Assembly (NCBI GenBank): GCA_027422505.1
Contig: JAPQWV010000018.1
Span: 19,300,001-19,364,000, forward strand
Direction: 5' to 3'
Length of the DNA stretch: 64,000 bases
Source: Craterostigma plantagineum
Taxonomy: Eukaryota; Streptophyta; Magnoliopsida; Lamiales; Linderniaceae
The position numbers were made by a program, and so were the translations under genes. Below, one piece after another: positions 1-59,363 of this stretch. Under the pieces are notes generated by a model. It saw only the letters and a program-made list of their open reading frames with translations. It had not been told where the DNA came from and did not search any database. The stretch's first letter is position 1. Each line of letters starts with the position of its first letter.

Positions 1-540
1 TCTGAAATTATACCAGAAACTGTAGAAATTATACCAACTGTTGTCGTAATTATACCCACAAAATTGTACACTATATCATTTGGTATAATAATGATAACAG
101 TTGGTATAATTAGAATAACGTTTGGTATAGTAATCAAACAGTTGGTATAATGTCCAATTTAATTTCAGAAAAGGGTATTTTCGTCTGTTCACTGTTTGGG
201 ATATTAAACACACAACTTTTTTGCAGATGTTACTGAAAAGGAAAATTTTTTGCCATAAGTACCGATAAGAAAGTTCAAAACACGAAAGAGCCTGATAAAG
301 AATTCACCCATTATATTATGATATAGATGGAAAACCCTAGTTTCCAAAGAATATTATATTATCACAAGAAAAAGAAAAGAGATAAAAGAAAAAGAAAAGG
401 CGCCCCCGCGAGCCACGTCATATATTACTATTTATTTAGCACCAAAATTATAATTGGGCCTAGGCCCAAATACGCTAAGGCTTAGTTAAACTTGTATGCT
501 TGCTCTGAAAAATTAGCTCAAGGGTTTGGGGCTTGGGGAA
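1..540. other. Host flank left of the Helitron, no gene seen
   Basis: AT-rich DNA with no convincing reading frame. Positions 79-152 hold about four imperfect units of roughly 20-21 bp built on TTGGTATAAT. The base at 540 is A, the expected 5' target base of a Helitron insertion. Confidence 0.6.
79..152. repeat. Short tandem repeat, TTGGTATAAT units
   Basis: Four imperfect copies begin near 79, 100, 121 and 141, each starting with TTGGTATAAT or a one-base variant. No function is apparent. Confidence 0.6.
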
Positions 541-556
541 TCTATATATATAAAAG
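541..556 (+). other. Helitron 5' terminus
   Basis: TCTATATATATAAAAG directly follows a host A. The leading TC and the TATA-rich start are the canonical left end recognised by RepHel. Confidence 0.85.
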
Positions 557-1136
557 TTGGATGGACTCTTTCTTGTGCTGACACGTGTGCAACGGTTTCC
601 CCCCCATCCAATCAAAGTGCGCGAATGTAGTTCTGATTAATATTCTGAGTTCAACCTATTAGTTTCCGACTTAAATTTGCCTAGAAGTGCTTACGTGTCG
701 TTATAGGAATGAATTTATATTTTATTTCGGGCGATTGGACTATATAAGACGCTATTCTCTGGCCGGAGATATTAATATATTACATTAAGTTTGCAGTATT
801 CATGATTCATTAACGATTCATATGCGTGACTGTTAGAGTCTTAGATTCATCGTCTATGCTATTAATGGTCTGGCAGGTGTACGGTCATACGATTGGTAGA
901 TTGCCTTGTATGTAGTCAAAACCTGTTCAACTCCTGTAACAATAGCCGACTATGGAATGATGGAATAAATGATCCATAAAGACATTAAATACAATAACTT
1001 CTTATTCATTAATGTTGCAAGACTGTTGAAATTCGCGGGTGACCTGAACGGGAATGAGGAGTAGTAGACGCATTAAACCCCACTATATAATTGTCTGTCC
1101 GGTGAGTTGAATTTATTGAAATGTGCTTTGTGTAAA

Positions 1137-3903
1137 ATGAGTCTTCCAACGAAACATTCTGCTTTAGGTGAATTAAAGGCTAGGACCAAATGTGGAACAA
1201 TTGTGGTGCGCGTCCTCCGTTCATGGACCGCAAGAAACACTAAGAAGAATGGAGAGCCCATGAGCCTAGATATGTTGTTGTTGGATGAGAGGGTATTTGT
1301 TCAATATGCTTGCGATGTTGTTTCTATTTGTTCCATATTGTATTTTGTGTTGTTATCATTTCATTTTTTTTTATTTGGTGTGGGCAGGATACTGTGATGC
1401 ATGCGTCTATCCACGTCGAAAGGGCTGATCGATATGCATCGAAGCTAAGGGATGGCCATATTTATTCAATAACTGACTTTGATGTTGTTGATTCCCCTAG
1501 GAACTACCGTATGACTGATGTTGAGTGTATGGTGAGATTCACTGATCGTACTGTAGTGGCTGAGGTGGATGACAAGTCGCGGTCAATAGGTGTCGACAAA
1601 TTTCGATTCATGTCGTACGAGGTCTTGATGCAGCTCGCCAACCGCAATAAGGAATTACCTGGTATTCCGACGTGTTTCGTTCGTTACAATTATATTTTCC
1701 TGTTTTGTCTGTGTTATACAGTATTTCCTTTACATGCGTATGGATGACCATCGTATATAGATTGGCATCCATGCGTGTTTGCTGACATTTGACAGTGTTG
1801 TCTCTGTTTTACAGGCATCCATTTTTGGTACCTGCTATTGTGTGTTGTTGCGTGCATTACGATTGTGTTTGCTATGTTGTCCCTGTTGTACTGTCTATCA
1901 TTCTTTGTTGATGTGTAGCTTATACATGCATGTTTACTACTATATTTTACTGTATTATCTTTGTCGTACAGTCTTGCAGTCTTTGTTACTGTCTGTTTTA
2001 CGGTCATGCAATGTAATTTCCGTGCATTTAGTCCACGTATGTTTACTCGCTTATACATGCGTGTTTACTACTATATTTTATCGTATTATCTTTGTCGTAC
2101 AGTCTTGCAGTCTTTGTTGCTGTCTGTTTTACGGTCATGCAATGTAATTTCCGTGCATTTAGCCCCACGTATGTTTACTCCACAGTCATGTCGATTCAGT
2201 GCAGCTGATTTTTTTACGTGTCTCTTGCATAATTTGTTTGATCCGCCATGTAGATGTTATTGGACTGTTATCTCAAGTGGTGGAGCCAGATGTTGGTGAC
2301 AGCGGTGGTTCAAAACGTGCAGAATTGAGGATTTTCTTGAAGGGGTACATGCTGTTTCTCTGCTCCATATTAGGTTCTTCCAGTTGGTTGGTAGTTTGGA
2401 TATTTGAAAATTCCTAAGCGTGACTACGCATCGTTCACGATATTGCAGATATCTTAACGCCACTGTTACTGTTTGGTCCGACAAGGCCGATGAATTTTGC
2501 GAGACTGTTCGGTCCAGGATTGGAGAACAAGTAGTTGTTATTGTGACAAGTGTTAACCCAAAATTCTTTGGGCGTAAGTGCCTTTGTTTATTTTTATGTG
2601 TACTTTTCTCTATCTTCATGTAAAATGTTCGTGCAGAAACCCTTTACTTGAATACCACATCCGCATCGAAACTGTATGTTGACCCTGAGATTGATGAGGC
2701 CTGGCAATTTCGCAAGAGGTGATTGTCTTGGCTAAGACATTGACTCCGCTGTACTTAAAAAAGGTTGTGTGATATTATTTGCCAATTGCAGCATGTCTCT
2801 TTTGGACCGGCCAGTCGCACTTTCCCTTGGCACAAAAATGCCTGATTTGCAATCGTGCCGCATTGCTGATATCTATGAATTTTTGCACAAGGAAGATGAA
2901 CAGGTATGGCCTTGTCTGTTTTGCTGTTGGTAGAAGTAGTAGTTGCTAACTCATTGGTGATATATGGTTTGCAGGTCAAAGATTTTATTTGTGTGGCTAG
3001 AATAACTGAGATCCTAACCAGAAATGGATGGCATTATATATCATGTTCAAAGTGTTCGAGCAAGGTGGCGAAGACGGGTGGGGCTTTGATATGTAGTAGG
3101 TGCTCTGATGTGAGAGCTGTCGGTATTCTGCGGTATTCTACTGCGCTTGGTGCATGTCTCTCTATTGTTTGATTCGTTAATCCATCGATATCAATTGTTT
3201 AAATATTATATCGTAGTTTCCGAATAGAGTGCATGGTCGCTGATAACGCTGATACAGCTACGTTCGTTATATTCGATGGGCCTGCAAGAAAGTGTACAAA
3301 CACTACGGCTGAGGAGATTCTTGGTACTCTGGTATGAGATGTGTATGTTGATTGTGTTCAAACATGTTTCTTACGATGGCAACAACTGTTCAGGCTGCAG
3401 ACTCTAATGTGGAAATACCTGATTGCATATCAAGATTGGTTGGGAAGACCTTTAAGTTCTACATAAAGGTTAAGCCTTTTGATTTTCGCAGCATGTTTCG
3501 AAGCTTTACTGTCTCGCGCATGTTGGAGCAGACCAGTGAGGATTTGGGCGATACCTTCCTCGATAGTTCAAAGGTAGTTGATTTTTGCACCCTGCATTCG
3601 AATTCTGTGATACCCTATTTTGTTTGTATGGTGATTTGTTAGGACAGCGCTGTCGGTGGTGATGGGTCAGTCATAGCAGGTGCTATTGATGAAACTGGTA
3701 ATGTTAATGAAATCTCTGCACTCACGGATGTTGAAAAGGATGTCGACCGCGGCCATGGAGGTAACAGTGCGACCAACAAGTTTAGTTCGGAATCGGCTGC
3801 TTGCGATCAAGTCAACGACAATTCTATCGGGGATGTCGGTATGCAAAGGGGTGACGGTACCGAGCGTGTTAGTTCCAAAAAGCGGAAGATAAGTTTTGAA
3901 TAG
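1137..3903 (+). CDS. RPA1-like single-strand DNA-binding protein, Helitron-encoded
   Basis: Predicted 517-aa protein from ten exons: 1137-1292, 1388-1661, 2254-2344, 2449-2573, 2637-2718, 2792-2903, 2975-3132, 3217-3331, 3394-3573, 3643-3903. All introns are GT-AG and the phases close the frame. It resembles the large subunit of replication protein A. Two N-terminal OB-fold-like blocks come first; the second contains DVIGLL and a TVWSDKADEF segment. A C-terminal OB fold has a four-cysteine zinc ribbon (CSKC then CSRC, exon 7) followed by ATFVIFDG. The tail is acidic and Gly/Asp-rich and ends in a basic KKRK patch that could be a nuclear signal. The start is the first ATG in frame (1137). Plant Helitrons are known to carry RPA-like genes. 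The likely role is coating single-stranded DNA during rolling-circle transposition; host RPA function cannot be excluded by sequence alone. Confidence 0.85.
1920..2180. repeat. 131-bp tandem duplication inside an RPA-like intron
   Basis: Copy one (1920-2050) and copy two (2051-2180) are nearly identical and sit in the 592-bp second intron (1662-2253). They account for the unusual length of that intron compared with its ~60-100-bp neighbours. Confidence 0.85.
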
Positions 3904-6060: not shown

Positions 6061-9000
6061 ATGGCGGAAACTGGTTTAGAGGTATTGTCTGTGTTTAACC
6101 GCCTGTTCAATGTTTACTGCATAAGTTTCATTTGGCCTGCATATGTCACATTTGTCCGTCTAAATTGACTGTGCCTTCTCCATTAAGACAGGCAAATGTT
6201 GCATGACCATTGATTTCCCCCTTTATAAGTGGGCTACACTTCTTTTGTAGAAATATTATGCACCCTATTAGAGACGAATGATCTTCGGATGTTCGTCCAT
6301 GCTATTCTATATTCTGTGTATATTCGTAATATATCGCTGTGTATATTCCCTATGTAGGTATTTTATGCAATCTGTTGAATGGCGTTCAAATTTCTGCATA
6401 CTGCTCTTCCATATTCTTATTTTCAGTAATAATATGATTCTTTTTATTTTCAGCCATTATTGGACACTCAGCTTCCACAAGACAATATCTTGCCATGCAA
6501 ACTAACCATATGTGCTGACTATAAAGGAGTCAGCAAACTGATACGGGATGTGCTAAATGCAGCAGAAATTGCGGAGTTCGTTGCACGATCTCCGTTTGGC
6601 CAGCTCATATCATGTGCAGATAGGTTCTATCTGTCGAACCAGCTGATTTGGTACATGATGCAAGCTCAAACTCCAATAAATCGTAGAGACGAATTGTGGA
6701 TGGTCATCAATTGCAGGCCTATACGGTTTTCGCCTATGGAATTCTGTTTGATTACTGGTCTGAAATTCTCGGTCGAGCCACAGGTCGTCGAGAATCATGC
6801 TTTTGCTAGGAGGCACTTTCCAAGTTCGCAAAAGATCACGCTGCAGGATGCAATTGATAAATTGAGCGAGATGGGGTGTAACGCATCATCCGGTGTTGAT
6901 GTTGAAAGATTAAAAATGGCCAGTGTTGTGTTTGTCGCAGGAGTACTCGATCACCGTGCCTGTCGAACAGATGTGAAGATAAATCCAGTGATACTTCACT
7001 TAGTTGAGGATTTCGACGCCTTCAACAACTATCCCTTCGGAAGTTATGCTTTCAAGACTGTTTTGGACTCACTGAAAAGGGACTTCTCTTCGTTAAACAA
7101 TATTCTGCCTGTCAGGGCTTCAAGAAAGTACCATACCTTTTGCTTGGGTGGATTCGTCCACCCAATTCAGGTAATATTACCCGCCTCTACACACGTGATC
7201 CATAGCTTTGCTTATTTACGATGTAATGTCAGGGTCTTCACTGTTATTTTGAAACAGATCCTTGCGTACGAATGCTTGCCAGGCGTTGCACAGAAATATG
7301 CAACGCATTTGGGCGACACGATCGACACAGTCCCCCGTATGTGCCGATGGAAGACAACACCTTGGCTAACGAAGCGAGCACCGCGACTACAAGATATTGA
7401 TGACGCTGTTAGGAAGTCAGAGGTTGTCAATGATCTCTTTATTGCCACCGCTGAAGAGTCTGTTGCAGGCTATTTTGCCAATAGCAACTTTGATGTCGTT
7501 CCCGGCGGCAGCGGTCTTCAGCAAATGGGTTCATCGTTGTTGAGAAACACCGCTGAAAGTGGTTTGCCACAGACCACCGTGGTGGACAATGAAGATGGGC
7601 AAAATGTGGTCATCAATAGCAATGACGAAGGTTCACATCCCCCAACATTACAAGATTTTGTCGACGGACTCCTGGCCAGTCGCAAGTCCATGCATGACAT
7701 TGCAAATGTCGTCACAGAGAACAATGCCAACATTGACTCACACCCTGTAGGACAGGTGCAATTACCTTATCATCCGCATTTAGATGTTGTGCCTCATATG
7801 AACAGTTCATCACCCGTGATTCACGAATTGCAGCAACAGTCCACTAATATGGACAATGCGATTGTGCCGTCTCAGACTGCACGCGACGGTATGGACACTC
7901 ATGATGATTTCGTCGACGTTGCGGAAATTGAGGCAGGTAGGACTTCGCATGTCGAGGAGCCGTATGCTGTACATGAGTTGGATATTGATCAAGGAATGAA
8001 CAAGGTTAATTCTCACGCGTCGCAAGGTAAATCAGTAGGAATGGAGAAGGTCTTGCGGCAGCTGGAGACGCTGAGTACAGTAGTCGAATACCACACTGAG
8101 CAGATTTTTCAGATGACCACCCAAATGAAAGAAGGTTTTTTTGGATTGAATGTACGGCTGACTGATATTGAGCATTGTCAACCGCTGGAAGATGTTGCCA
8201 GAGCCTTTGGTGACCAGTTACAGCATCTAACGGAAAAGATAGGGAAGACACGAGGCACGGATCCTGGTACAAACATCTTTTTGTGCCATTAAAATTTGTA
8301 TTCTCATTACTCTAAATACTTCATCATATACCACGTATAGAGTCAGCCAGGGCCAAGGCAATAGACGAGGGGACTGAGCTTCCACCAACAAAAAGGCAAA
8401 AAGCATTGCAAAAGGCTGTTCAGCCCTGTTCCATCGCTCCCAGAATTCCATATGGAAAGTCGAATATTGACGAGCATGTTCTCTACAAACTGAAAATGTG
8501 GCCAAAAGCAGCTGAACGTATAGAGCGAATGGCCGTGAGCCACTACGTCGTAGGGCTTTGTGGGACGGAGCTGAAACAAGATTTCTTCAATGAACTAAAG
8601 ACGCGTGGCATTTACCTACGAGACGTTGTAAGTTTAAAATTGAGTATTAAATTTTGAGATATTCCTCGCTTAATGAATTTTTGAATATCCGTGTTTTTCT
8701 CAACTTTGTAACGCAGCATATTGATGAATGTATGCGCGGATTCATCGAAATGCAAAAAAGGTGTGCCAGCCCTCTTAAGACAGTTGCATTGATGAACACA
8801 GTTTTCAGCCAGTTCATCAAGACGCTTCCTGTTGTTGATAAAACAGCTGACCTAACGGAACTAATGCCCTATGTTCTTGGAAAGTCTATCAATTGGCCGT
8901 CATGTAGTTGGAAAGATGCGTCGGAAATTGTGTTGCCCGTGAACGTGAACAACAATCATTGGGTGTTGGCCGTTATCTTTCTTAGGCAAAAAGTGTTTTT

Positions 9001-9410
9001 GGTCATGGATTCGGATAGATCAGTCGATAAACACTTCGCACAGACGCGTCTTGCGTTGGGGAACACAATCATTATCACCAAGATGTTGCTACGAGAACTA
9101 GACATTGAACGCAATGATTTTCAATTCGACTTTAGGCGTGATAGTCGAATCTCGCAGCAAGGTTACAGGTGCCTTTATACAAATTAATCAATTCACGTGC
9201 TTTATTGTCCACTTTATTTACCTAATCATATAGACCTGTTTTCAATGTAGTGGAGAATGTGGCGTACACATGTTGCGGAATGCATTTGGCATGATGTTTC
9301 CAGGTGACAATCTATATAACATAAAACCGTGCCAGATAGAAGAGTTCCGAAAATATTTGACGGCGTCTGTGTACTACAGTTTTTGGCATTGGCCTCCTTA
9401 TAATGAATAG
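6061..9410 (+). CDS. Ulp1-A: DUF1985-Ulp1 (C48) cysteine peptidase, 881 aa
   Basis: Exons 6061-6081, 6454-7170, 7258-8266, 8341-8627, 8717-9168 and 9251-9410 give an open 882-codon frame. The first exon encodes only MAETGLE and is conserved in Ulp1-B, which fixes the start. Residues about 60-220 match the plant transposon-associated DUF1985 region (WYMMQAQ, PIRFSPMEFCLITGL). An acidic, low-complexity linker and a coiled coil (about 510-590) follow. The C-terminal third is a Ulp1/SENP-type peptidase with candidate triad His759 (NNNHWVL), Asp776 (MDSD) and Cys832 (GECGVHM). Family members cleave SUMO or related modifiers from proteins. In plants this architecture is best known from Mutator-like elements; here it lies inside Helitron ends. 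The intron at 7171-7257 (87 nt) has no stop and keeps frame, so a 910-aa retained form is possible. Confidence 0.85.
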
Positions 9411-10537
9411 ACGTGTTGAATACAGCTCTTATTTATGGGTTTTGTCACCAACAATATTAGCTTTCTAGCCAAAATGAGCTATGAGGTTAGTCGTCCTGCC
9501 ATGGAAGGCTGTATGGAAACTACTCACATTAACAAATTACATTTTGTATAAATATTGCTTTTATTGTATGACTCACGCGATAACCAGTATTGCTCATCAG
9601 ACTGATGCAACGATATCGGCACAACACTTCACAGGATAAGTGAAACAGTTCGTAATGTAACTACTAAGCATATGACTGGTCCTTCTCTTGGCTGAGTGTT
9701 ACAATATGCAACTCCCTTCTTATTAGCACATTCTCATTGTCGATCTATTTAAAATAATATTCCCGAGACACTTCAAGGCACCATCAATTTGCAAGACTGT
9801 TCAACTAATTTAATTGGATAGTTTAAGGCGTCTGTTCAGCTGCCTATTAAATAAATTCATAGAATAGAATATAACGCAATATAATACAATATTGTATAAT
9901 ATAATATAATATAATATGTAATATAATAGAATATAATGAAAGATATTACAATCTAATTATATCTGATATAATATCGTCTATAATATGATAGAATAAAATA
10001 AAATAATATTTTATAATAATGTAATATAATATAATATAATACAATATAATATAATGTAATGTAATGTAATATGTTCTGAAGTGAGATAATGTAATATAAT
10101 ATCATATAAAATATTATTTATAGTATAATATAATAGAATCTCATCTAATATAACATAATAGAATATAATATTACACCTCATGCTCATTTTGACTATCGTA
10201 TATATGGCTGAATAATACGGAGAACTATATATATAGCACTTATACATTAATATACCGTTGCCATATGACACGCTAATACTTAATGTTATAGTGCCAATCA
10301 ATTTTCATTCAATACGATTAAATGCAAGTACGATAACTAATTATTTACATATAGATTCATTGAATGTAGGAGTGGCCCTTCAAGTATTCCTTCATTAACA
10401 ATGTAACATATATTATGCAGCTGACATATGGACTAACCGTTGCTTCGAAAGTGTTTGCATCAAAGGGTTTCTGGCTGGCGTAGATCATTTATGTTGCACA
10501 ACACCTTAACCTTGAAAGAAAATACAAATCTGGTGTT
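9411..10537. other. Spacer between Ulp1-A and RepHel, AT-rich
   Basis: No intact gene. Positions about 9585-9665 resemble the 3' end of RepHel exon 1 and its donor site (shared ACTTCACA-GATAA and AACAGTT-GTAA blocks) and look like a decayed copy. From about 9868 to 10170 the sequence is a degenerate TATAA/ATAAT pentamer tract. The last ~100 bases before 10538 would contain the RepHel promoter. Confidence 0.6.
9868..10170. repeat. Degenerate (TATAA)n low-complexity tract
   Basis: About 300 bp of ATAAT/TATAA words with scattered changes. Reading frames across it on the minus strand are compositional artefacts. Confidence 0.8.
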
Positions 10538-13500: not shown

Positions 13501-15823
13501 TGAAATAGCGAGATACCTTGATTGTAGATATATGTCGGCCTGTGAAGCTATGTGGAGAATATTTAAATTTGACGTCCATTACAGAACGCCAGCAGTACAG
13601 AGATTAGCACTCCATTTGGAGGGTGAACAAAGTTTAGTATATGATGAGTCTGTTGATCTCAGCAATATGTTGACGAGAGATGGCGTACACAAAACAATAA
13701 TGACAGAATGGATGGAAATGAACAAGCACAGTGAAGAGGCTAAAAACCTTACGTATATTCAATTCCCATCAAAATTTGTATGGAACGCCTCGACGAAGAG
13801 CTGGACACCCCGGAAGAAAGGTTTCGTCATTGGAAGGGTAGTTAACATACATCCCACGGCGGGTGAGATATATTACATGAAAATGTTATTAACAATTGTT
13901 AGGGGACCCACATCATATGAAGATATACGTACGGTAAATGGTGAAGTCTTACCAACTTTCAAAGAAGCATGCTATAGGAGAGGATTATTAGATGGAGACT
14001 CAGAGTGGCATCATGCCATGGATGAAGCTGCGCAATGGGCTACTCCGATTCAGCTTCGGCAACTTTTTGTTACGTTGCTGATTTTCTGTGAAGTAACCAA
14101 CCCTCTGAATTTGTGGAATAGCTTTTGGAAGACTCTATCAGAAGACATACCAATGCGCCAAAAACGACTATTTGGGTTCACAGAAATGCATCTTACAGAC
14201 GACCAAGTAAAAAACTATGCGCTGGCTGAGATCGAAAAACTAATGATACAGAACTCGAAGACTCTTTCTGACTTCCCTCCAATGCCACTGCCGTCAAAGA
14301 ACGTGCTAAAAGATCTCAACAACAGGTTATTAATGGAAGAAAGCTATTACAACACCGAGGAGAACGACGTTGAATATCAGCGTCTTATTGTGACCTTGAA
14401 CGAAGAGCAGCGTAACATATTCAACGAAGTAATCGACTCGGTTGCAAACGACAGTGGACACCTGTTCTTTCTATATGGCCCTGGAGGAACAGGGAAGACA
14501 CATGTTTACAAAACAATCATTGCAAAATTAAGGTCTGCAAATCAGATTGTAATACCAGTTGCATCATCAGGTATTGCAGCTTTGCTGCTACCAGGTGGAA
14601 GAACTGCACATTCAAGGTTCAAGATCCCTCTTATACTACAAGAGAATTCCATGTGCGACATAAAGCAAGGGACGATGTTGGCTGAACTGTTGGCGCAAGC
14701 AAAATTGATAATCTGGGATGAAGCGCCGATGACAAACAAGCATGCTTTTGAGGCATTGGACAGAACTATGAGGGACCTGATGTCCAAAAGTTCTGAGAAC
14801 TGTGAGGGCAAGCCGTTTGGTGGAAAGACCGTGCTGTTAGGGGGCGATTTCAGACAATTACTTCCAGTTATACGTAATGGTTCCAGACAAGATACGGTCG
14901 AATCAGCCATAAACAGGTCATACTTATGGCAGCATTGTCGTGTGCATACCCTTACACAGAACATGAGATTACATCGTTCAGAAATAGAATTTGCAGATTG
15001 GATTTTGCATGTGGGCAATGGAAATGTGCAAGCTGCTGTAGATACAGACGTTGAGACCATTAAGGTTCCAAAAAACATGTCTATTGATTCTCAGGGTGAT
15101 ACGATCCGTAGCATATGTAACTACGTATATGTTGACTTCGAAGACAATATGACTGACCGAAATTATATTAAGGAAAGAGCCGTCCTGACACCCCGAAACA
15201 AAACAGTTGACGAAGTGAATGACTTCATGCTCTCCATAGTACCAGGGCATGAGACAGAATACTTAAGTTCAGACAGCTTGGAATTGGAAGCCGACGTGGA
15301 AATCAGTGCAACAACAATCTATCCAGTCGAGTTTTTAAACATGCTTGAGATATCAGGCGTCCCAAACCACAAACTCATCCTTAAACATGGAATTTCAGTA
15401 ATGTTATTGCGGAACTTAAATCAGAGAGACGGACTGTGCAATGGAACAAGACTCATTGTATCGCGCCTTGGAACAAACGTTGTTGAAGCAGAAATCTTAA
15501 CTGGAACGCACGTTGGCAATAAGGTTCTCATACCAAGGATAATTATGTCACCCTCCGACACAACCTGGCCATTCAAACTGCGCCGTAGACAATTCCCACT
15601 TAAAGTCTGCTACGCGATGACAATAAATAAAAGTCAAGGTCAGAGCCTAAGAAGGGTTGGAGTATATCTTCCCAGTCCAGTTTTCACGCATGGCCAACTG
15701 TACGTAGCACTATCTAGAGTTACATCACCTATGGGAATCAGAATATTGAGCATAAACGAAGGAGACATAGAAGACAACGAGGTGGTAAACATGGTTTTCC
15801 ATGAAGTTTTCAACAATGTTTAG
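10538..15823 (+). CDS. RepHel: Helitron rolling-circle replication initiator and helicase, 1622 aa
   Basis: Exons 10538-10781, 10877-11038, 11137-11247, 11332-11409, 11494-12850 and 12907-15823 sum to 4869 nt, an exact open frame. The first ~198 residues are a helical, basic extension. A zinc-finger-like segment follows in exon 5 (CYFC, then FSICCSQG). The Rep domain has the HUH motif in GLPHAHIL (His678, His680) and the two-tyrosine motif KYLFKYITKG (Tyr814, Tyr818). The C-terminal Pif1-family SF1B helicase has Walker A GPGGTGKT (~1175), Walker B IIWDEAPM, GGDFRQLLPV, and the final YVALSRV (~1583). All key catalytic residues are present and there is no frameshift, so the protein could be active. 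It should nick at the TC and CTAG ends, strand-transfer and unwind the element. The exon 5-6 junction (donor 12851, acceptor 12906) was chosen because it alone preserves frame. Confidence 0.93.
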
Positions 15824-16790
15824 GTGCCTAAAAAATAACAAGGTATTCTGTAATACCCTCGCTAAAATCTGTAGACAATTGTTGTATGCTGCTATTGTTT
15901 AACATATTTTGTTACAATGTTTACCATCAAACAAACAATAATTCATACAGTCATACTATTCAATAAGTTAATGTCGCGGTGTTTAACTCCATGATACTTT
16001 TACGGTTGTGCATTTTAATTCGCTAACATTTTCAGATACATGTACATTTTGCATGCGTTTGGTCTCCACTGTAATTCCATTTTGTACAGTCATACCAGAT
16101 AGGCTGTTATATTGTAGTTTGTTTTATCTGTTGTACAGTCTTCATTTTTTTTACAATATAAATATACTTCCATTTTTACAGTCTAGAGCGACAAAGCTTT
16201 TTGGCACAAATCATGCGACTCTATCATGATATGGAAATTAGAGACGCAACATAAATGACACTATAATGTAAAACAAATAAACAACTGTTGAATTACCACT
16301 AATGATATCTATCATAAAATGAACTAAAACGCATCGCCCCATTTACTATATAGTAAATATTTTGTTATTGTTTTTATATAATAATAATGGTATTTTTAGT
16401 AAATATATATTGGCAAACATGAACTCAATTATATTATATATTGATTTATAAAATAAACTGTTGCATTCAAACCGTATAATAATAATGAAATTAAGGGTGG
16501 GAAACCAAGAATAGGTATTAATGAAAATCAAATATACCGTTATGGATGGTTACGTCTGTTTGAATCGCCTCAATACTATTGAGGCAAAACACCAACCCTT
16601 ATGAAGAAGACCTTTCAACTGCTGAAATACTTATTAAAAATTCACTCATTAACTCGGTAATTGCTCCATAATAATTGTGGCCATTTGAATCGCCCGAGCC
16701 CCAGACATAAATTAAATACACGAAACGAAGCAACCTATGCAAAGCAATTGAACACATTCATTTTAGAGCCACGTTCTTCCGCAAATATTT
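15824..16790. other. Spacer between RepHel and Ulp1-C
   Basis: AT-rich, about 970 bp, with no coding signal that I can support. It must contain the RepHel 3' end and the Ulp1-C promoter. Confidence 0.5.
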
Positions 16791-18335
16791 GTGACTTTAC
16801 GGTTTTCTATGCAGCATTGTACATTATATAAGTCCTCAAAAACTCAATTTCATAAACAATTAACTGCACAGCAATTTCAAATAACTCAAATGACGAATGA
16901 AATGACAAATTATTTTGACAACATCGTTGCGGATCTTCGTCGAGCTGCGAGCCAATTTGCTGAGAAGATAGAACATAAGATAGATGCCTATGTGCAATCT
17001 GCTGCCCAAAGGTTCAACGATCTACATGCAAGGCACAATCACCAGATTGCTATCCTAAATGAATTGACAGCAAAGATCAACAAGAATTACTCAGAAATGC
17101 AACAGAGGCTATCACATATAGAGCAGGCGCTTGGTATGTCCACAGTATTTTCCAAACAGCCTTACATAACTGTTACTACGTACAAATCGCCCTGCAATTG
17201 TTTTGGCAGGAAAAATCGCCACAACGCTAGGCGACGACCAGTCGACAGAAAAGGTAACAACCATTCATTCAAATAAGGAAACGCCGCCTTCAGGAAAAAG
17301 AAAGCGTTCAAACCTTCCCAAGGAACCTACACAGACAACATTGCAGAAAAGGCCTAAGAGCAAAATTACACCGCCATTAGACCAAGACCATTCGAAGGCG
17401 AAAAAGGTTCCGAAAGACAAAACCCTTGCGACAACTGTCAAGAAACTCTCAAAATTGTTTCCCCGCGTAGCAGCAGCTATAGGGACAATGACCCAGGATG
17501 ACTCTATCAGTACCATATTAGGAGAGGAGCGTGGCTACCAATTCTTCGAAGATCTCATGACAAAAGGAACTTGGCTAACTGATGAGGTACAACATCATAT
17601 TATTGAATGTAAAGTATGTAAGCATATTCTTACAATATATTGTTATCTGAAACAGCATATAGACGAATGCCTGCGTGGGTTTATCGAGAGACAGGCCCAT
17701 GCAAAGTTCCCCAAGGCAAAGGTTGCTTTTATGAACACAACATTCAACCAGATAATTACAACAGAATTTCGACCCGACGGCCATACTGACCTGACAGCCA
17801 TACGTCCATATGCTAATGGTACTGTTGACAATTGGCCATCTCTTCCATGGCAAGATTCGGACCTCATAGTTATCCCAGTCAATATTAATGAATGTCATTG
17901 GGTACTATGCATTGTGGACTATAAAAAGCAATCAATCGCAGTACACGATTGTGACCCTTCGGTGGACAAGGATATGAGGTTCTTTGTGCATGCGTTTAAT
18001 AAAACACGGCTTACAATTCCCTATATTCTTCAAGACCTGCGAATGACTGACTCCATCGTCGACTTCACTGTTTATAGGGATCCTGACTTCCCCCGTCAAT
18101 CCTTCAGGTAATTCTAATCTCTCCATGTATTCAATTTGAGCAATATCATTCAGTAACATAATAATTCGAAATATCTTCTCACTTGTGTACTAGCGGGGAC
18201 TGCGGCGTATACATGCTACGATCAGCATTTTCGCTTATGTTTGCCGAAGATGATGTCCACAGTGTCTTGCCTGATATGATCCAAGAATTTAGAGAATATC
18301 TGACCGCATCGATATTCTTCAATAATTGGTCGTAG
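16791..18335 (+). CDS. Ulp1-C: coiled-coil plus Ulp1 (C48) cysteine peptidase, about 460 aa
   Basis: Exons 16791-17133, 17210-18107 and 18194-18335 give 460 residues. In-frame ATGs at 16890 and 16902 are plausible later starts; the similarity to the RepHel N-terminus favours the later ones. The protein lacks DUF1985. It starts with a long amphipathic helix region (ADLRRAASQFAEKIEHKI), then a Lys/Pro-rich, nuclear-signal-like linker (GKRKRSNLPK), then the peptidase domain. The candidate triad is intact: His344 (NECHWVL), Asp361 (VHDCDPS) and Cys417 (GDCGVYM). At the place where Ulp1-A and -B have an ~90-104-nt intron before HIDEC, this gene has only 42 nt (17610-17651) that begin GTATGT, end in ACAG and are open in frame. 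The segment may be read through rather than spliced; removing it gives 446 aa. Confidence 0.78.
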
Positions 18336-18987
18336 CTCTTGGACACTGTTCTAATCAATCTTTGATGAGTGCATTTTTATATTACTGTTTACCTATCGTT
18401 TCTTGGGAAGTTATTACGGCAGTATAACTTAAGGATCATTTTACAATATTCACATTACAATAATATGACCCAGGACTCAGGCACAACATATACTACCAAT
18501 TTATTGAATACAATGAAAAACACCAGGCTCAAAGACTCTATAAATTAGTGCCTGAATAACGTAGTAATGCCGATAATATAATGTTATATAATATAACATA
18601 AGATCATATAATATAACAATATTTATAAGATAGTATAATTCTATATTTGTGTAATCATATTAATAGAGAGAGCTAAATATGACTTATACTAATATACCAT
18701 GTTAGTCTATTGTTTATTCCCCTTATATTGGACCTTATTATGTTCATTTTTTTATTGTTGGGCCAGCCCGTTTCAGCGTTTCAATGCATTTGTGGGATTG
18801 TGCCCTAAATTATCATGAATTGTGTAATTGGCGGCCCACGCAAGCCTTCAAAAAAAGCATTACACCTGATTCCAAATTACAAAATTCCTTCCCCATCGTT
18901 TCAGCTGATTCCAAATTTTCCAGAATTTGAACTTGCTTATTCCGTGGTCATACAGTCCAGAGGCGACGCATATTCCACTGAATACTA
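18336..18987. other. Spacer and promoter region upstream of Ulp1-B
   Basis: No gene seen. The last ~250 bp share scattered blocks with the DNA upstream of Ulp1-A: GGCCCA-rich segments, GGTCATACAGTCCA (18946-18959 and 5938-5951) and the ATGGCGGAAACTGG start context. The duplication that made the two genes therefore included upstream sequence. Confidence 0.55.
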
Positions 18988-21900
18988 ATGGCGGAAACTG
19001 GTTCAGAGGTATTCACTGTGCTTTAACAATTTGTACGATCATTAATCAGTATGGAACATTTAGTCTCCATATTCTGAGCTTTACTCGGTTATCAGACTGT
19101 GTCTTTTGCATTAAGATAGTAAATTGGCGAATGGTCATTTTTCCCTCTTTTACAAGTGAGCCATATTTTTTTGGACGGGCGTAATATGCAATTTGGTGGA
19201 GATGTTGTTGCAGGCTTCTCTACGGTCCACTGCGTATTAGTTGTATATTTCTGTGTATATTTCTTATCCGATCTGTTTGACATGAACGGTTCTCGAATAT
19301 TAGTGCATACTGTTGTTGGATATTGTCCTATGTTTTGTGTAACAGCATTGGTTTTCCATTTCCAGATGTTTACCACTCAGCTTCCACAAGAAAATATTGT
19401 TCCCTGCAAATTAACCTTATGTGCTGACTATAAAGGGATTAGCAAACTTATTCGGGACAATCTAAACGAAGCAGAGTTTGCAGAAATGCTTGCACGATCT
19501 CCGTTCGGACGTCTCATAGCCTGTGCAGAAATGTTCTATTTGTCGAGCCAGCTAATCTGGTACATGATCCAAGCACAGACTCCACTACGAAATAGTGATG
19601 AACTGTGGATGATTATCAATTCGAAGCCTATACGGTTTTCGCCTCAGGAATTCTGTTTGATGACCGGTCTCAGATTTTCTGCTGAGCCAGAGGTGGACGA
19701 AGATAATTCGTTTATTACAAGACACTTTCCAGGCGAGGAAAAGGTCTCGCTGCAGGACGCGATTGATAGGTTGACGGAAATGGGTTGTAACTCATCGTCA
19801 TCTGTTGACGTTGAAAAATTAAAAATGGCCAGCGTGGTTTTTGTCGCTGGAGTTCTTGATCAGCGTGGATGCCGAACGAATGTTAAGATAAACCCGATGA
19901 TTCTTCACTTAATAGAGAATTTCGGCGAGTTCAACAGCTATCCTTTTGGAAAGTATGCATACGACATTGTTCTGACGTCGGTGAAAAGGAACCTCTCTTC
20001 TTTTAAAAACAGTCAGGGTACAAGCAGTTCGAGAAGATATCAGACGTTGTGCTTGGGTGGCTTCGTGCACCCAATTCAGGTAAATCTTACACGACTCTAC
20101 CAACAGGATTCGTATCCTTGCATATTTATACTAAAATGTATTGTTACCCACTGTTGTTTTCAAAACAGATCCTTGCTTATGAGTGCTTGCCAGGTGTTGC
20201 AAGTAAATATGCAACGTACTTGGACGAAATAGTCGAGCCGGTTCCGAGAATGTGCAGATGGAAGACAAATGCATGGCCAACAAAGCGAGCTCCAAGGTTG
20301 CAGGACGTTGCCAATACTGTTAAGAATTCGGCGGTTGAGAATAATAAAGTCTTCTTACCTACGGCTCAAGAGGTTGTTGCAGGGTATTTTGCCGAAAGCA
20401 GATTTGACGGACGTCCCCACAACGGATGCCTTCAGCGTGACAGGTCGTCACCATCGAGAAGCACCAGTGGAACTGGGTCACCGAATTCTCCCGTATTAGC
20501 AGATGAAGACACCGACATGCAAGGCGAAGGTAGCAGTGAGAGAGTTTTGCCATCTCTAACATTACGAAGTTTCGTGGACAACCTCCGGACAAGCCGCAAA
20601 GCTATGGATCAGATCCCAAATGTTGTTATCGAGGATAATGTCTGCATCGAAACAAATCATGAAGAACGTATACAATCACCTCCTCAGTCGCATGTGGATG
20701 TCGTTGCTGATATGAACGATGCGTCGCCGGTAGTTGACAAAATTCCGCAGCAGCCAACTGATTCGCATGATAGTGCAAATGGGTTCTGTTTTGATGGAAA
20801 TAATGGTATGGATACCCATGATGAGTTTGTCAACGACGTGGAAAATGAGGTTCGTGGAACTTCTCATGTTGAGGAGCCGTTCGTTGAAGGGCAGTTGGAA
20901 AGGGAGCAAGAGAAAAGGAAGGTTAATTCTCGGTCGTCGCATCGTAGGTCGAGAGGAGCTAAGAAGGTCTTGCGACAACTTGGAAATCTCAGTACTGTTG
21001 TCGAACGCCACACTAAGCAGGTCGTGCATTTAACCAGACAGGTTAAAGCAGGTTTTGATGGTTTGAACGTGAGACTGGCTGATATTGAACGTGCTAAACC
21101 ACTGGAAAATATGTTGAGAACTATTGGTGACCAATTAGAGCAGCTGACGGGAAAGATATCGAGCATACAAGCCACTGATCCTGGTAAAATACTTTTTCTT
21201 CCAGGTAAATTTTGCAATATATTCCCTCTAATTATCTCACATCTTATTTGCCTTAGAGTTAGCTGGCCGAAACGCAACAGACGATGGAGATGGAATTCCA
21301 CGTGCGAAAAGGCCAAAATCAATAGGGCAGAGTGCCAAGCCGTCTTCTAACCCTGCCAGAATTCCTTACGGAAAGCAGAATGTTGATGAGCACGTTCTGT
21401 ACAAGCTGCAAATGTGGCCGAAAGCAGCTGCGTCCATAGAACGCATGGCCACCAATCACTCCGTAGCAGGTCTTTGCGGGACAGTTCTTAAAAAAGAATT
21501 CTTTGTTGAATTAATGAGTCGCGGCACCTGTCTTCGAGCTGTTGTAAGTCTACGTTTGAGCATGAAATCATGAGATATCCCTCAGTGAATTGGTGTGAGG
21601 CAGACGTTTATTAATATCCATTGTTTTTCCTGACTTTGGTTACGCAGCATGTCGACGAATGTATGCGCGGGTTCGTTGAAATGCAACTGAGGTGTGCCAG
21701 CCCTGTGAAGACGGTCGCATTCATGAACACAGCTTTCAGCCAGTTGGTGAAATCGCTCCCAATTGTTAGTGGAAAAGCTGATTTGACGAAAGTGATTCCG
21801 TTTGTTCTTGGCAACTCTGCCCAATGGCCGTCCGCTAGCTGGAAAAATGCGTCGGTAATTGTGCTACCAGTGAATGTCAACGAGAATCGTTGGGTGCTGG

Positions 21901-22340
21901 CCACCATTCATCCTAGGAAACGATCATTTGCGATTCTTGATTCAGACATATCCGCAGATCCAAGGTTCACAGCAACCCGTACAGCGATGGGAAACACAGT
22001 TTGTATCACAAAATTGTTGCTACGACGCCTGGGCATTGAACGTTCTAATTTTCAGTATGACTGTACACGCGACGGGCGGATCGCGCAGCAGGGATACAGG
22101 TGACGTTATACAAATGAAATGATTCGTATACGTCATGGCCTTCTTTATTAGTTAACCATATTATGAGATTTTCGTTGCAGCGGAGAATGTGGCGTCCATA
22201 TGTTGCGGAATGCATTTGGCATGATGTTCCCAGGTGACAATCTGTCTTGCATTAAACCATGCCAAATTGAAGAGTTCAGGAAATATTTGGCAGCATCTGT
22301 CTACTTTAATTATTGGCATTGGCCTCCGTATAATGAATAG
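18988..22340 (+). CDS. Ulp1-B: DUF1985-Ulp1-like protein with a lost catalytic His, 882 aa
   Basis: Exons 18988-19008, 19366-20079, 20169-21183, 21257-21543, 21648-22099 and 22181-22340 give an open 883-codon frame. The start exon encodes MAETGSE, as in Ulp1-A. DUF1985 lies at about 60-220, an acidic Ser-rich linker follows, then a coiled coil and a Ulp1-like C-terminus. Four exons (21, 287, 452 and 160 nt) have the same length as in Ulp1-A. The residue at the catalytic His position is Arg760 (NENRWVL, codon CGT at 21888-21890), whereas Ulp1-A and Ulp1-C have His. The Asp (ILDSD) and Cys833 (GECGVHM) remain. Papain-like peptidases need the His to activate Cys, so hydrolysis is probably lost. 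The otherwise open 882-residue frame suggests a retained non-catalytic role, such as binding a modifier, or a recent mutation. Confidence 0.82.
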
Positions 22341-25008
22341 GCATGTTGAAGAACATTTAACTTATTATTTCCGTACTATTTGCGATGTGTCTTTGAGGCT
22401 GACGTCGGAGTCTCTGAACATACTTTTGTGGGTGTTTTTATTGTTTCAGACCTTTACAATAGTAGGTTACTCAGGCGTCTTAGACATGATGGTAGCATTT
22501 ACTGTATGACAAGGTTGGTAGAAATTTTCAACATTATCAGATAATATTTAGTGCAATTAATTACAAGCTGAATACTGGATGACTGACCCTATAATCAGTA
22601 GTCCACCAATTCAATTTAGCAGGCTGCAAACAGTCTGGTCCGCTAACTGTATAACTGTAACACAACGTAAAGCTGTAGTATGTTTTGCAATTTGTTTGTT
22701 TGCAAAAAGGTAAGGATGATCATGCATTATTCTTATATTAAAAATTAAAAGACTAATGTATCGTGGTATGTTTGATTTTCGACTTATTTTTATTAATAAT
22801 ACTTATGCAACATATGCAAATTAACAAAAGTTTAAACAATTTCCGTTTATTAATTTCCTTGCATCGATTAGGGGGTAAAAAACCTTTAGCTAGGGCGTAT
22901 AATTTTCAATGTATTCTTCCGCAACTGATTTTCGGTCTTAATGCGCCAATATATATCACTATATTATGTACTTTTCAAAATGTTTACCGTACAATAGCTT
23001 AGACATAAGAACTTACGAATTATGCTTGACTGCTCATGTTACAAATATGGCCACACCAATCGAGCACTACTCATACAACAAATACGGTGCAGTCATGCCA
23101 ATCTCTCACAGTGTATGTCAGTATAAATGGGCTTGGTTGCAATTTTAATAATGAAATTGTACTCCATACGGCCCATCGTTTCATATCACCGGACCAAGAA
23201 TCAACTTTCAAACAAAGTATTTGACCATATAGCTTCAGACGCAGGCGACCAAAGAAGCCCCAAATCTAAACAAAATCAATCGGCGGGTCGCGGCACAACG
23301 CGCCCTACGTAGACAGTCAGTTGGTATTCTTAAGTCGCTGGATTGCTCCGAAGGAGTTCTACAGGGTATGTTTAGTCTAAGATCAATCAGTTGAACTTAA
23401 TTTCATATGCTGTTTTGAAAACGTGTTTGCAGAGCTCTTTAAATTCGTCTTTAGGGTTTGATTTCGAACTGGTTCGTGCTTTAATAAATAAATCTCAAAT
23501 CTGCCTTTTGTTTGTTTGATTACGCCCTCTCTCAGGGTGTTGTGAACAATAATGCCCACTGTGGCGAAGATGCTGACGACCCAATATATTCGATAAAATG
23601 TGCAGGCCAAGACAATCCTTCCTCTACATATGCACCATTTGAATATGCCTGAAAACAGGCTGCCCTTCAACTCAGGAGTCGGTGATGACACAGTCTCCTT
23701 GCACATGCGGAGAAGTACATGGAGTCAACGAGCCTAACTTCAGAAGGAAACCATTCCTAAATCAGTTCAGTTAGAGGCAAAATTCGTAGACTGCGTGTAC
23801 TTCTCCGCTGTTCAAGGAAACGTGGACGTCCTATATTCTGATAGCACGTCCCGCAAGGGAAGTCCCTCTACCTAACTTCAGGCCATCTCCTGCATATGAA
23901 CTGAAAAAGTTTGCACTTCAACCCAAGAGTCTGTTATGACTCAGTTCAGTTAGAGCAGTTAAAGCAAGAAATACATGGTGTCAACGAGCCTAACTTCAAA
24001 TGAATCCATTCCTAAATCAGTTCAGTTAGAGCACAAATTCCTGGACACCGCGTGCTTCACTGCTATGCAGGATACCGTCGGTGCGACCTCTATTGTGACA
24101 ACACCTCAGCAAAGGGAGTTCTTCTACCCAAATATGATTTCACATACGTGGATATTTTTGCATTTACAATTGTTTCCATATTCTTTCAGGTGACATATGA
24201 GCCTTAATATACCGTAGTTTAAGTGAGAAGCGGACAACGGTCGCTCTCACTGAAAACGATATTTTGGTAGCACCAGCGGAAGAGTTCTCAACTCCCAAGT
24301 CTTTTAGAGATCAGTTTCGTTGCACTAGATGGAGTCTCGGAATCGTCTATGTAGAGTGTAAGAATAAAACGTAAACATGATTAGACACGGCATGGATAGA
24401 AAATGTGGAATTCAGGTACCGATGTAGTATTCAAAAATTGGTAGCCAAAAGATGTTCTTATGAGATGTTCTTGCACTCATGCAGTCTTATGAGATGTTCT
24501 TGCTTGCAGAGGATGACAATATTGCAAATGCTTAAACTACATCCACCCAGTCCTTAGGTTAAATTGTTTCACACGATAATCCTACAATGAAAAAAAGTTC
24601 CAGTTCCACATTTCGAATGACAATTACAAATTAGCAGTATTGCAAGTTTTCAGTCATGCGCTCAGTTCCGGATCCACTTCGACCCAAGGTGGGCTCTCGC
24701 TTACCGTAAGAAATTGTAACAGTTGTCTTATACGAGAATTTCGTTGCACTAGCATCCCCGCTGCAAATCTCAATTGATAGATTGGTAGGTAAGAAACAGA
24801 TTTCCATTATATGATCTGTTTACCACTAAGAAGCAGTCGTACAGTTCTTGAATAAAACATATCTGTTGATATGCATGATTTGTGAAAAGATAACGGGTTA
24901 ACAAAGTAGGTTACGGCAGTGTTTTCAACACCATCGACCAACATACGGGGTCGTTGTATTACTTTAAAAATAATTGAATAATAATACAATATTAATCGCA
25001 ACAAACTA
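22341..25008. other. Helitron 3' region with tandem duplication and coding-like remnants
   Basis: No complete gene. Positions about 23233-23369 form a 45-codon open stretch bounded by an AG acceptor and a GT donor, rich in Arg/Gln (VAAQRALRRQS), reminiscent of basic Helitron N-terminal exons but isolated. Two imperfect copies of a ~256-bp unit follow (copies starting near 23717 and 23973). The rest is unremarkable. Confidence 0.5.
23717..24135. repeat. Two imperfect copies of a ~256-bp unit
   Basis: The phrase GTCAACGAGCCTAACTTC occurs at about 23723 and 23979. In both copies CATTCCTAAATCAGTTCAG and a TAGAC/GGACACCGCGTG-like block follow at the same offsets. The similarity extends upstream to CTTCAACYCARGAGTC before each copy. 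Confidence 0.75.
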
Positions 25009-25037
25009 CCCCGTGCATCGCACGGGGGCAAACCTAG
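25009..25037 (+). terminator. Helitron 3' terminus: hairpin plus CTAG
   Basis: Perfect stem CCCCGTGC / GCACGGGG with loop ATC (25009-25027), then GCAAAC and terminal CTAG (25034-25037), followed by host T. This is the canonical RepHel termination signal. Confidence 0.93.
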
Positions 25038-25397
25038 TTGTACTAATGTTTTGAATAAATCACCCACAACAATTTGATAATTGGGAAGATGGGATTGATC
25101 ATTCGATTTCAATAAAATTGTAGAAATTCAAACTATCATATCTTGTTCAGTATGGTCAAGTATTTGGGGACCAAGACAATACTAGGCCTTCAGAAGTATA
25201 TTACGAAAAAAGAAACGTTTTCTCGAATAACAATCAACAGAGCAGAACGAGTCGAGCTTTTTTATACTGGAAAATTCAATAACCAAAACCAAAACGAAGA
25301 AAATCCTCAAGGGTAAAGCAACGTTAAGTGCTAAATCATAACCTAACAACAGCAGATTCAATTTCCTATAAGAGAAATCGAAATTGGTAAAAAATTG

Positions 25398-30500: not shown

Positions 30501-30504
30501 GTAC

Positions 30505-31290: not shown

Positions 31291-31327
31291 ACATTCAGGG
31301 GATGCCTTCTAGGGGACAGATGACTAA

Positions 31328-31859
31328 AAAGCATTTCCAACCGAAAAACACATTCTCAAACTCAAACTCAGTTGTCAAACTCAAAATGCAGTAATAATTC
31401 TCCAACCGTTTAACTCATTCTCATACTCAAAAGACTATTTTTGTAATATTCACTTTCACGCCAATATTTTAAAATTTCAAGCCACATATTTTATAACTTC
31501 ACAAATTTGACTACAAATATTATTTGAGATTTAATAGAGAAAAAACTAATAAAATTAAAACAAAATATATTTTACACATATATAAAGAGCTAGTGGACAA
31601 AAGCTTTGAGCCACACCACATGACTTAAAACACTCACGACTGCTACACAGCTAACGAAATGTCAAAGAAATAATTATTATATTTAAGTGGGCCAACCTTG
31701 TAATATAGAAACTGAAATGCGTTCACTGAATATTAAAATGCAAACATGCATTTTTTGACCAGTGAAATTATTAGAAATGCATTATGGGTATGCATATGAG
31801 TGTCCATTGGAGTAAATTTTGGGTTTTGTGTGGAAAATGAGTGTCCATTGGAGATGCTC
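31328..31859. mobile_element. Putative MITE with GAGCATCTCC-type ends
   Basis: The left end AAGCATTTCC and the right end GGAGATGCTC are imperfect inverted repeats, flanked by TAA on both sides when the ends are placed here, which suggests a PIF/Harbinger-type insertion. There is no coding capacity. The exact ends are uncertain by one or two bases. Confidence 0.5.
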
Positions 31860-59319: not shown

Positions 59320-59363
59320 CTTTATCGGTTTGATGATTGAGTAAAACCTGCTCTGATACCACT

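Follow-up and report, generated by a model that had tools for sequence, protein, structure and literature searches.

A recently multiplied Helitron of Craterostigma plantagineum carries three Ulp1-type genes and a possible anti-silencing module

What might three genes for SUMO-protease-like proteins contribute to a rolling-circle transposon? The question is raised by a 64,000-nucleotide stretch of the Craterostigma plantagineum genome (contig JAPQWV010000018.1, positions 19,300,001 to 19,364,000; referred to as the window, whose own numbering is used below), in which positions 541-25037 of the + strand form a complete 24.5-kb plant-type Helitron. To our knowledge, transposition from the native sequence has yet to be demonstrated for any autonomous plant Helitron, and we know of no mechanism by which Helitrons escape silencing. 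Two of the three SUMO-protease-like genes described here share a domain with anti-silencing proteins of other transposons.

The element starts with TCTATATATATAAAAGTTGGATGG at position 541, preceded by A540, and its last bases up to 25037 are ...CCCCGTGCATCGCACGGGGGCAAACCTAG, with T25038 next. Its 5′ terminus (TC..., 541-564, +) has the same start in its copies and in a sister family, fam7. At the other end, a computed fold gives a terminal hairpin with an 8-bp stem and a 3-nt loop (25009-25027, +; -10.3 kcal/mol, z -4.4), followed by the terminal CTAG (25034-25037, +), which is directly succeeded by T in the window and in the copies. Across nine loci examined, A stands before TC at all 8 of the 5′ ends read, and T after CTAG at all 8 of the 3′ ends read, counts that leave out the 5′ end of copy C18_1.81 (outside the piece read) and the 3′ end of C302 (pattern mismatch). 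Several hallmarks of canonical Helitrons are present together: a Rep (HUH) domain and a PIF1-like helicase in one protein, TC, hairpin and CTRR termini, insertion between A and T, and an RPA1-like gene. The end sequences and copy flanks therefore bear out the Helitron identity, the two termini and the A-T insertion site proposed in the initial annotation. Membership of the Helentrons is ruled out by the canonical termini, the A-T site and the lack of an endonuclease domain: Pfam found no AP endonuclease in the two large RepHel frames, which take in the C-terminus.

The 3′ 138 bp of the element are found at 100% identity at eight places, the window counted. Seven other copies of 24.4-28.1 kb align along their length at 98.7-99.8% identity (matches below 150 bp dropped); six of the seven alignments begin at window positions 536-540 and all seven stop at 25038-25046, the few aligned bases outside the Helitron borders being chance matches. 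The C18_1.81 copy was read from window position 2627 onward, and its 5′ end was matched at C18:1840887. Of 40 scored 5′ ends, 23 can be paired with a 3′ end that was also scored and lies on the same strand no more than 45 kb away, and eight of these 23 pairs, the window among them, span 24.4-24.8 kb. Since the copies have both borders and the ends pair at the matching span, positions 541 and 25037 are the two ends of a single element, as had been claimed. Chimeras are possible among long elements, and one copy (C2_8.49) adjoins a second, partial copy; yet a composite joined from the ends of different elements, or a mis-assembled locus, is barely conceivable and is refuted by the seven other collinear copies, which have different flanks and identical borders, while the termini of fam7 also match.

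The window family has multiplied recently. Among eight young copies read, a count that leaves out five further young 5′ ends, the window copy alone has all five genes unbroken; RepHel is unbroken in one of the other seven, DU1 in two and DU2 in two. In the young copies and C302, pN/pS values for RPA, DU1 and DU2 indicate weak constraint (0.51-1.37), with 0.84 for RepHel in the young copies, as neutral decay of most insertions would predict. The C302 values are taken from DNA alignment, the tblastn Ks of 0.34 for its ULP3 gene being an artefact of reading through frameshifts. Recent multiplication and a sole intact copy among the eight strengthen the suggestion that the window Helitron may be autonomous.

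Gene models and domain matches confirm the earlier account of five genes on a single strand with intact spliced frames: RPA1-like, DU1, RepHel, ULP3 and DU2, all on the + strand, keep full-length frames after removal of 27 GT-AG introns in total, with a single stop in each. The RPA1-like gene (1137-3903; 10 exons, 517 aa) matches DUF223 and Rep_fac-A_C. RepHel (10538-15823; 6 exons, 1607 aa) matches Helitron_like_N and PIF1, both found by Pfam in the two large RepHel frames, and its spliced protein contains the motifs HAH, KYLFKY and GPGGTGKT (Walker A). DU1 (6061-9410; 6 exons, 881 aa) and DU2 (18988-22340; 6 exons, 882 aa) combine DUF1985 (E 1.2e-15 and 1e-15, respectively) with an Ulp1 (C48) domain, and ULP3 (16809-18335; 4 exons, 431 aa) carries an Ulp1 (C48) domain, no DUF1985 being found in ULP3-type genes. 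No MULE transposase domain was found by Pfam in ten element ORFs scanned, nor any DUF287 match at E<=0.001 in the element ORFs and spliced proteins.

The initial annotation was right in counting three Ulp1-type genes, but it missed DUF1985 in two of them and the loss of the catalytic His in DU2, as well as the sister families and the probable exchange of DU2 described below. In ULP3, the catalytic His-Asp-Cys and the oxyanion Gln align with yeast Ulp1 (1euv), and the His, Asp and Cys of DU1 are likewise present by alignment. In DU2 the catalytic His is replaced by Arg, in the window, in 8/8 other copies and in the one fam7 copy, and the protein is predicted to be catalytically dead. A different substitution, Cys to Ser, is found in a DU-like gene of a third family, fam450, in the C450 copy and at six of seven further loci, the seventh giving no match; this is the change used for making substrate-trapping Ulp1. 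Among the copies read these active-site losses are fixed, and the window family, fam7 and fam450 each have two Ulp1 domains with catalytic residues and one with a residue lost. The DUF1985 core was not detected in the fam450 DU-like gene; with the ULP3-type genes, this suggests that Ulp1 need not be tied to DUF1985. Between DU1 and DU2, Ks is 0.80, and Ka/Ks is lower in the DUF1985 part (0.25) and the Ulp1 part (0.22) than in the middle (0.49), a pattern resembling the conserved domains and variable regions of VANC proteins (PMC5735166). A protein homologue search with DU1 gave one match, in Primulina eburnea, which lies in the DUF1985 part and covers 28% of the query at 39% identity, and one with ULP3 gave none; AlphaFold modelling of DUF1985 with four sequences reached a mean pLDDT of 42, too low for a usable fold.

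Comparison with fam7, a second Helitron family with the same five genes in a different order, gives Ka/Ks values of 0.26 (RPA), 0.32 (DU1), 0.11 (RepHel), 0.41 (ULP3) and 0.37 (DU2), which indicate purifying selection on all five genes. By this measure, the three SUMO-protease-like genes of the window Helitron are kept by natural selection. The comparison rests on one fam7 copy, which is broken by frame changes in DU2, DU1 and RepHel and lacks a 3′ hairpin arm; its stop codons in RPA (one) and ULP3 (two) are taken as tblastn entering introns. Fam450 has no RepHel and only an RPA remnant, and retains three Ulp1-domain genes, to which the related window-family genes stand at a Ks of 1.17 or saturated. 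Its ends are common to many near-identical places, and one copy has an exact empty site with no target duplication.

DU2 departs from the other genes, with a Ks to fam7 of 0.19 (0.15-0.23), whereas RPA, DU1, RepHel and ULP3 lie at 0.62-0.70. The DU2 block as a whole (18542-22814, +, delimited by comparison with fam7) is 90% identical to fam7 over 18987-22759 and 76%, gaps counted, over 18542-18989, against about 77-81% in the alignable stretches flanking it. The lower Ks suggests that the block probably crossed between the Helitron families after their split. Gene conversion, or slower evolution of DU2, would also give such likeness, and only one fam7 copy underlies the comparison; these are quite improbable readings, as the 90% stretch takes in introns and 3′ intergenic DNA and the block has another position among the genes, at a point where fam7 has about 100 bp.

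In the non-coding DNA of the window Helitron, ACAGTC comes out strongest among the 6-mers that contain at least two G/C and at least three different letters; its top rank holds only within this set, as k-mers of lower G/C or diversity were left out. It ranks second in fam7 non-coding DNA, behind TACAGT, and its score was reached in 0/100 Markov simulations for either element. In fam450, ACAGTC is weakly enriched (5 vs 1.3) and TACAGTC absent; the coding masks of fam7 and fam450 are tblastn matches and hence approximate. The host flank shows some TACAGTC excess as well (5 vs 1.5). ACAGTC motifs occur in a 131-bp tandem duplication within the second RPA intron (1918-2180, +), and four cluster 3′ of RepHel (15947-16183, +) in a block that partly recurs at other non-coding places of fam7. 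Some of the occurrences are copies of a single repeat, and some are shared through descent. The unfiltered k-mer list is dominated by (TATAA)n arrays.

Our favoured reading, to which we give slightly less than even confidence, is that of a canonical plant Helitron with a selected, exchangeable three-gene Ulp1 module whose DUF1985-Ulp1 proteins would work like the anti-silencing proteins VANC and KIU. Briefly, these proteins would bind short motifs in Helitron non-coding DNA, as VANC does on VANDAL MULEs, and, at silenced copies, would target SUMO conjugates: DU1 and ULP3 would be the active proteases, and DU2, catalytically dead, would bind SUMO or DNA. The module would thereby make the Helitron accessible to transcription and copying, and relatives that lack RepHel could benefit from it too. 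The Ulp1 genes might instead aid transposition directly: at the rolling-circle intermediate their products would strip SUMO from Rep, from RPA or from host proteins of repair and replication, and silencing would be left untouched. The retained H, D and C of window ULP3 and DU1 would suit such a role, OTU proteases of Helentrons have been argued to act in transposition (PMC4067079), and a suggested transposition role of Ulp1 has been cited (PMC2836005). Nevertheless, we consider it rather unlikely, since the Ulp1 genes are kept in the RepHel-less fam450, DU2 is under selection although predicted to be dead, and DUF1985 is common to an anti-silencing protein (PMC5735166).

That the genes are passengers, picked up from the host or a MULE with no benefit to the element, would accord with the frequent capture of gene fragments by plant Helitrons (PMC6431247, PMC3288121) and with the broken genes in most young copies read. 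It is improbable, however, given that these genes are complete with introns, that the same set is found in fam7 at a RepHel Ks of 0.62, with purifying selection between the families (a Ka/Ks well below 1 being indicated for one other family so far), that related genes persist in fam450 at a Ks of 1.17 or saturated, and that the DU2 block is of later common origin. Extending the anti-silencing reading to plant Helitrons in general is a more tentative step: they may own a mobile module, convergent with the VANC/KIU system or acquired from it, that would join DUF1985 DNA recognition to Ulp1, comprise, as in all three families read, intact proteases and a fixed inactive partner, pass between families and be kept without a replicase.

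How anti-silencing follows from DNA binding is left open in PMC5735166. That one element encodes Ulp1 partners predicted to be active as well as inactive makes SUMO a possible link between the two. The window family is recent and multicopy, with precise borders and one fully open copy of the eight read, and together with the RepHel-less fam450 it makes autonomy and trans-mobilisation directly testable.

In the literature searched, Helitrons bearing Ulp1 or DUF1985 were not found described, in keeping with the earlier remark that this gene combination is not known as a described Helitron class. Helitrons of Arabidopsis, rice and maize (ZmhelB) share with the window element the HUH-type Rep and PIF1 helicase, the RPA1-like gene, the 5′ TC, the 3′ hairpin, CTAG and insertion between A and T (PMC3288121, PMC4683698), whereas the three Ulp1-domain genes, two with DUF1985, are additional. 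At 24.5 kb it exceeds the maize autonomous candidates of 12-15 kb (PMC3288121), but lengths of up to 39 kb are on record for maize Helitrons that have captured fragments, and size alone is not new (PMC6431247). Animal Helentrons with an OTU cysteine protease (PMC4067079) are likewise rolling-circle elements that carry RPA and a gene for a cysteine protease of the ubiquitin type; the window protease is of the C48 (Ulp1) type, and the element differs in its canonical termini, its A-T site and the absence of a detected AP endonuclease. The RPA-bearing, RepHel-less Mothra mother element of rice (PMC4683698) resembles fam450 in being amplified and keeping another element gene, yet fam450 has only an RPA remnant and three Ulp1-domain genes. 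A functional parallel may lie with the VANDAL and Kaonashi (KIU) MULEs, whose VANC proteins contain DUF1985, also with DUF287, and have as binding sites short motifs within non-coding tandem repeats (PMC5735166), KIU being an Ulp1-bearing VANC (PMC13317346). Unlike them, the window element is of the rolling-circle type, with no MULE transposase domain or DUF287 found, and has three Ulp1-domain genes, one predicted dead; it shares with them a DUF1985 protein, Ulp1 in the case of KIU, a variable middle between conserved domains and an enriched short motif lying partly in intron and intergenic repeats.

The window lies on contig JAPQWV010000018.1 (C18) of a 1.71 Gb genome and carries a complete Helitron on the + strand at positions 541-25037. 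This element begins with TCTATATATATAAAAGTTGGATGG directly after A540 and closes with a GC-rich hairpin and CTAG, followed by T25038, the hairpin being far more stable than its shuffled counterparts (-10.3 versus -3.75 kcal/mol, z -4.4). An A precedes TC in all eight 5′ ends read (window, six young copies, and C302, a copy of a 93-96% identical subfamily), and a T follows CTAG in all eight 3′ ends read (window and seven young copies). The initial annotation had claimed both canonical termini and an A|T site, which is borne out by these ends and by copies ending at the same borders; as a transposon, the element is a canonical plant Helitron.

The terminal 138 bp recur with 100% identity at no fewer than eight places including the window (40 of 321 candidates scored), and seven other copies are 98.7-99.8% identical to the window element across the whole length read, with similarity stopping a few bases from its borders (matches below 150 bp were dropped). 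The first 360 bp gave at least 40 scored full-length matches among 333 candidates; identity is 98-100% for 13 of them and 93-96% for 27. For 23 of these 40 ends a scored 3′ partner lies no more than 45 kb away in the same orientation, with spans of 20-28.1 kb in 20 cases and 11, 36, and 41 kb in the other three. Two copies align in a single piece, with 57 mismatches over 24,520 alignment columns for one and 51 over 24,513 for the other. Because copies share borders at a divergence of only about 0.2%, the boundaries are secure and the family is recent; at 7e-9 substitutions per site and year, its age would be of the order of 0.15 million years. One copy, C18_1.81, read only from window position 2627 onward and with its 5′ end at C18:1840887, bears a ~3.6 kb insertion inside RepHel. 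At another, C2_8.49 (fetched pieces L027-L029), the 5′ flank at C2:8528762-8529128 is element-internal sequence (window 15051-16601), followed by 16 bp and a new 5′ end, and a second 5′ end lies 16 kb upstream; at this locus a full copy stands head-to-tail behind a truncated one, perhaps as a rolling-circle multimer or a nested insertion.

Exons were placed by hand, guided by open reading frames, splice signals, and alignment of paralogues, and these models confirm the earlier claim of five genes in frame after splicing, with 27 GT-AG introns and a single stop per gene. Pfam domains were assigned to the RPA1-like gene (517 aa; DUF223, Rep_fac-A_C), DU1 and DU2 (881 and 882 aa; both DUF1985 and C48), RepHel (1607 aa; Helitron_like_N and PIF1, with HAH, KYLFKY, and GPGGTGKT motifs), and ULP3 (431 aa; C48), whose alignment to yeast Ulp1 (1euv, E 2.5e-05) retains His, Asp, Gln, and Cys. 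DU1 and DU2 are paralogues of long standing (Ks 0.80). Between them Ka/Ks is 0.25 for the DUF1985 portion and 0.22 for the Ulp1 portion, and it rises to 0.49 across the variable middle. The only database relative of DU1 found, a 635-aa Primulina eburnea protein (P0001), carries DUF1985 and the apparent beginning of an Ulp1 domain, a hint that the module may be present in other plants.

When the window exon models were transferred to the seven other young copies, none had all five genes unbroken together: RPA is open in three of the six where it is readable, DU1 in two of seven (an in-frame deletion being present in one of them), RepHel in one, ULP3 in five, and DU2 in two. Part of the single-base differences among copies, located in short homopolymers, could have arisen in assembly. 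Either the broken copies were mobilised in trans or they decayed after insertion; of all copies read, the window copy is the strongest candidate for an autonomous element. Pooled ratios against the young copies (ULP3 0.17, DU2 0.51, DU1 0.78, RepHel 0.84, RPA 1.37) are as expected if most insertions decay once they have landed; against C302, itself broken, pN/pS is 0.28 for RepHel, 0.24 for ULP3, and 0.56-0.65 for RPA, DU1, and DU2.

A stronger test of selection than the young copies is comparison between families. A genome search with ULP3 yielded at least 278 matches (97 of 7744 candidates scored), many of those listed at 79-86% identity and about ten at 66-67%, and one locus per group was read, representing families fam7 and fam450. 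The fam7 locus (C7:22683400-22709399) has an A|TC start with 24 bases identical to those of the window element and, ~23.8 kb away, a CTAG|T end embedded in sequence resembling that of the window element; this copy lacks the left hairpin arm at its 3′ end. It holds the same five genes, rearranged as RPA-DU2-DU1-RepHel-ULP3, and is broken, with tblastn pieces shifting frame within DU2, DU1, and RepHel. Ka/Ks between window and fam7 is 0.26 for RPA, 0.32 for DU1, 0.11 for RepHel, 0.41 for ULP3, and 0.37 for DU2. Ks is 0.70, 0.67, 0.62, and 0.63 for the first four of these genes versus 0.19 for DU2 (95% bootstrap 0.15-0.23). The similarity around DU2 extends through introns and 3′ intergenic DNA, at 90% identity over window 18987-22759 and 76%, gaps counted, over 18542-18989, and this block is flanked by window 18525 and 23019, points ~100 bp apart in fam7. 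Its low Ks and position indicate that the DU2 block most likely moved between the two families after their split, in either direction. Irregular (TATAA)n arrays also occur in non-coding DNA of the window element (9859-10171 and 18573-18616), their commonest 10-mers being absent from its coding DNA, and fam7 has a comparable AT-rich stretch at the matching place.

The 12.9-kb fam450 copy on C450 (L035:4032 to L034:6961) contains an RPA remnant, two ULP3-like genes (a and c), and one DU-like gene with no detectable DUF1985 core; RepHel was not found in this copy even at E = 10. Its 3′ end was scored at 40 or more places at 91-100% identity, five of which, including C450, are 100% identical at full length, and such places need not all carry its genes; for the 5′ end, 23 of 46 matches start no more than 7 bases apart and thereby define it. 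The surrounding region is, by our own reading of its translation, presumably acyl-CoA-oxidase-like. At an empty site on C190 the joined C450 flanks match 755 of 770 bases, ungapped across AA|T, which shows A|T insertion without duplication in this sister family. The gene beside the insertion (L035:3000-3830) has an unfilled, 98% identical counterpart on C190 (L045), and the similarity suggests a recent segmental or haplotype duplicate.

In DU2, the catalytic His is replaced by Arg in the window, in all eight other copies (seven young, C302), and in the single fam7 copy. In the DU-like gene of fam450, Ser takes the place of the catalytic Cys, both in the C450 copy and at six of seven further loci, the seventh giving no match. 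His, Asp, and Cys are kept in DU1 and ULP3 of window and fam7 and in fam450 a and c of the copy read. Among the other window-family copies, where the His codon was the sole catalytic position compared for these two genes, it is retained in ULP3 in eight of eight and in DU1 in seven of eight, with Tyr in the broken C19_7.25. These residue states point to two intact Ulp1 domains and one predicted inactive domain in three families, and the putatively inactive member is under purifying selection in window and fam7.

Outside the element, a long purine/pyrimidine-biased low-complexity tract at 30362-31355, with open frames on both strands, is most likely non-coding. Copia-type LTR retrotransposon remnants lie on the - strand at 32576-35379 and 54737-59376 (integrase, RVT_2, and gag domains; three frames scanned), and a GRAS-family transcription factor open frame at 47572-49281 (Pfam E 2e-96).

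Plant Helitrons with RPA and animal Helentrons with OTU proteases are described (PMC4067079, PMC6431247, PMC4683698, PMC3288121), as are Ulp1 and DUF1985 in MULEs (PMC5735166, PMC13317346, PMC2836005). Literature on Helitrons with Ulp1, DUF1985, SUMO protease, or peptidase C48, outside most subscription papers and Repbase, yielded no published Ulp1 gene inside a Helitron in the text available; the accessible part of PMC5240378 reports an Ulp1 gene and putative helitrons within one 297-kb Amaranthus region, neither placed inside the other. The Ulp1-bearing Helitron is thus likely new in print.

As to function, ACAGTC occurs 12 times versus 2.3 expected in the 11.5 kb of non-coding DNA of the window Helitron, and none of 100 order-2 simulations gave an equally strong 6-mer (at least two G/C and three different letters). 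In fam7 it occurs 15 times versus 3.2 expected (0/100 simulations), ranking second behind TACAGT. Counted on both strands, non-coding versus coding occurrences are 18 versus 9 in the window element and 27 versus 4 in fam7; the 39 kb of host flank contain 13. In fam450 ACAGTC is found five times versus 1.3 expected on the + strand and TACAGTC not at all; the latter occurs five times versus 1.5 expected in host flank. These occurrences are not independent, because some are repeats of one block at several non-coding places; targets of VANC proteins likewise grow through repeat formation.

The main alternative, that Ulp1 acts directly in transposition, is mildly disfavoured, as the RepHel-less fam450 keeps the module and a predicted dead protease is retained. 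We propose instead that the three-gene Ulp1 module may be an anti-silencing module, with putative DNA binding and effect, on the basis of the enriched ACAGTC and of parallels with VANC and KIU proteins. In the published text available, the VANC proteins encoded by VANDAL MULEs carry DUF1985, bind short motifs piled up in intron and intergenic tandem repeats, and make their own family lose DNA methylation (PMC5735166, PMC10398659), and the Ulp1-bearing VANC genes are those termed KIU (PMC13317346).
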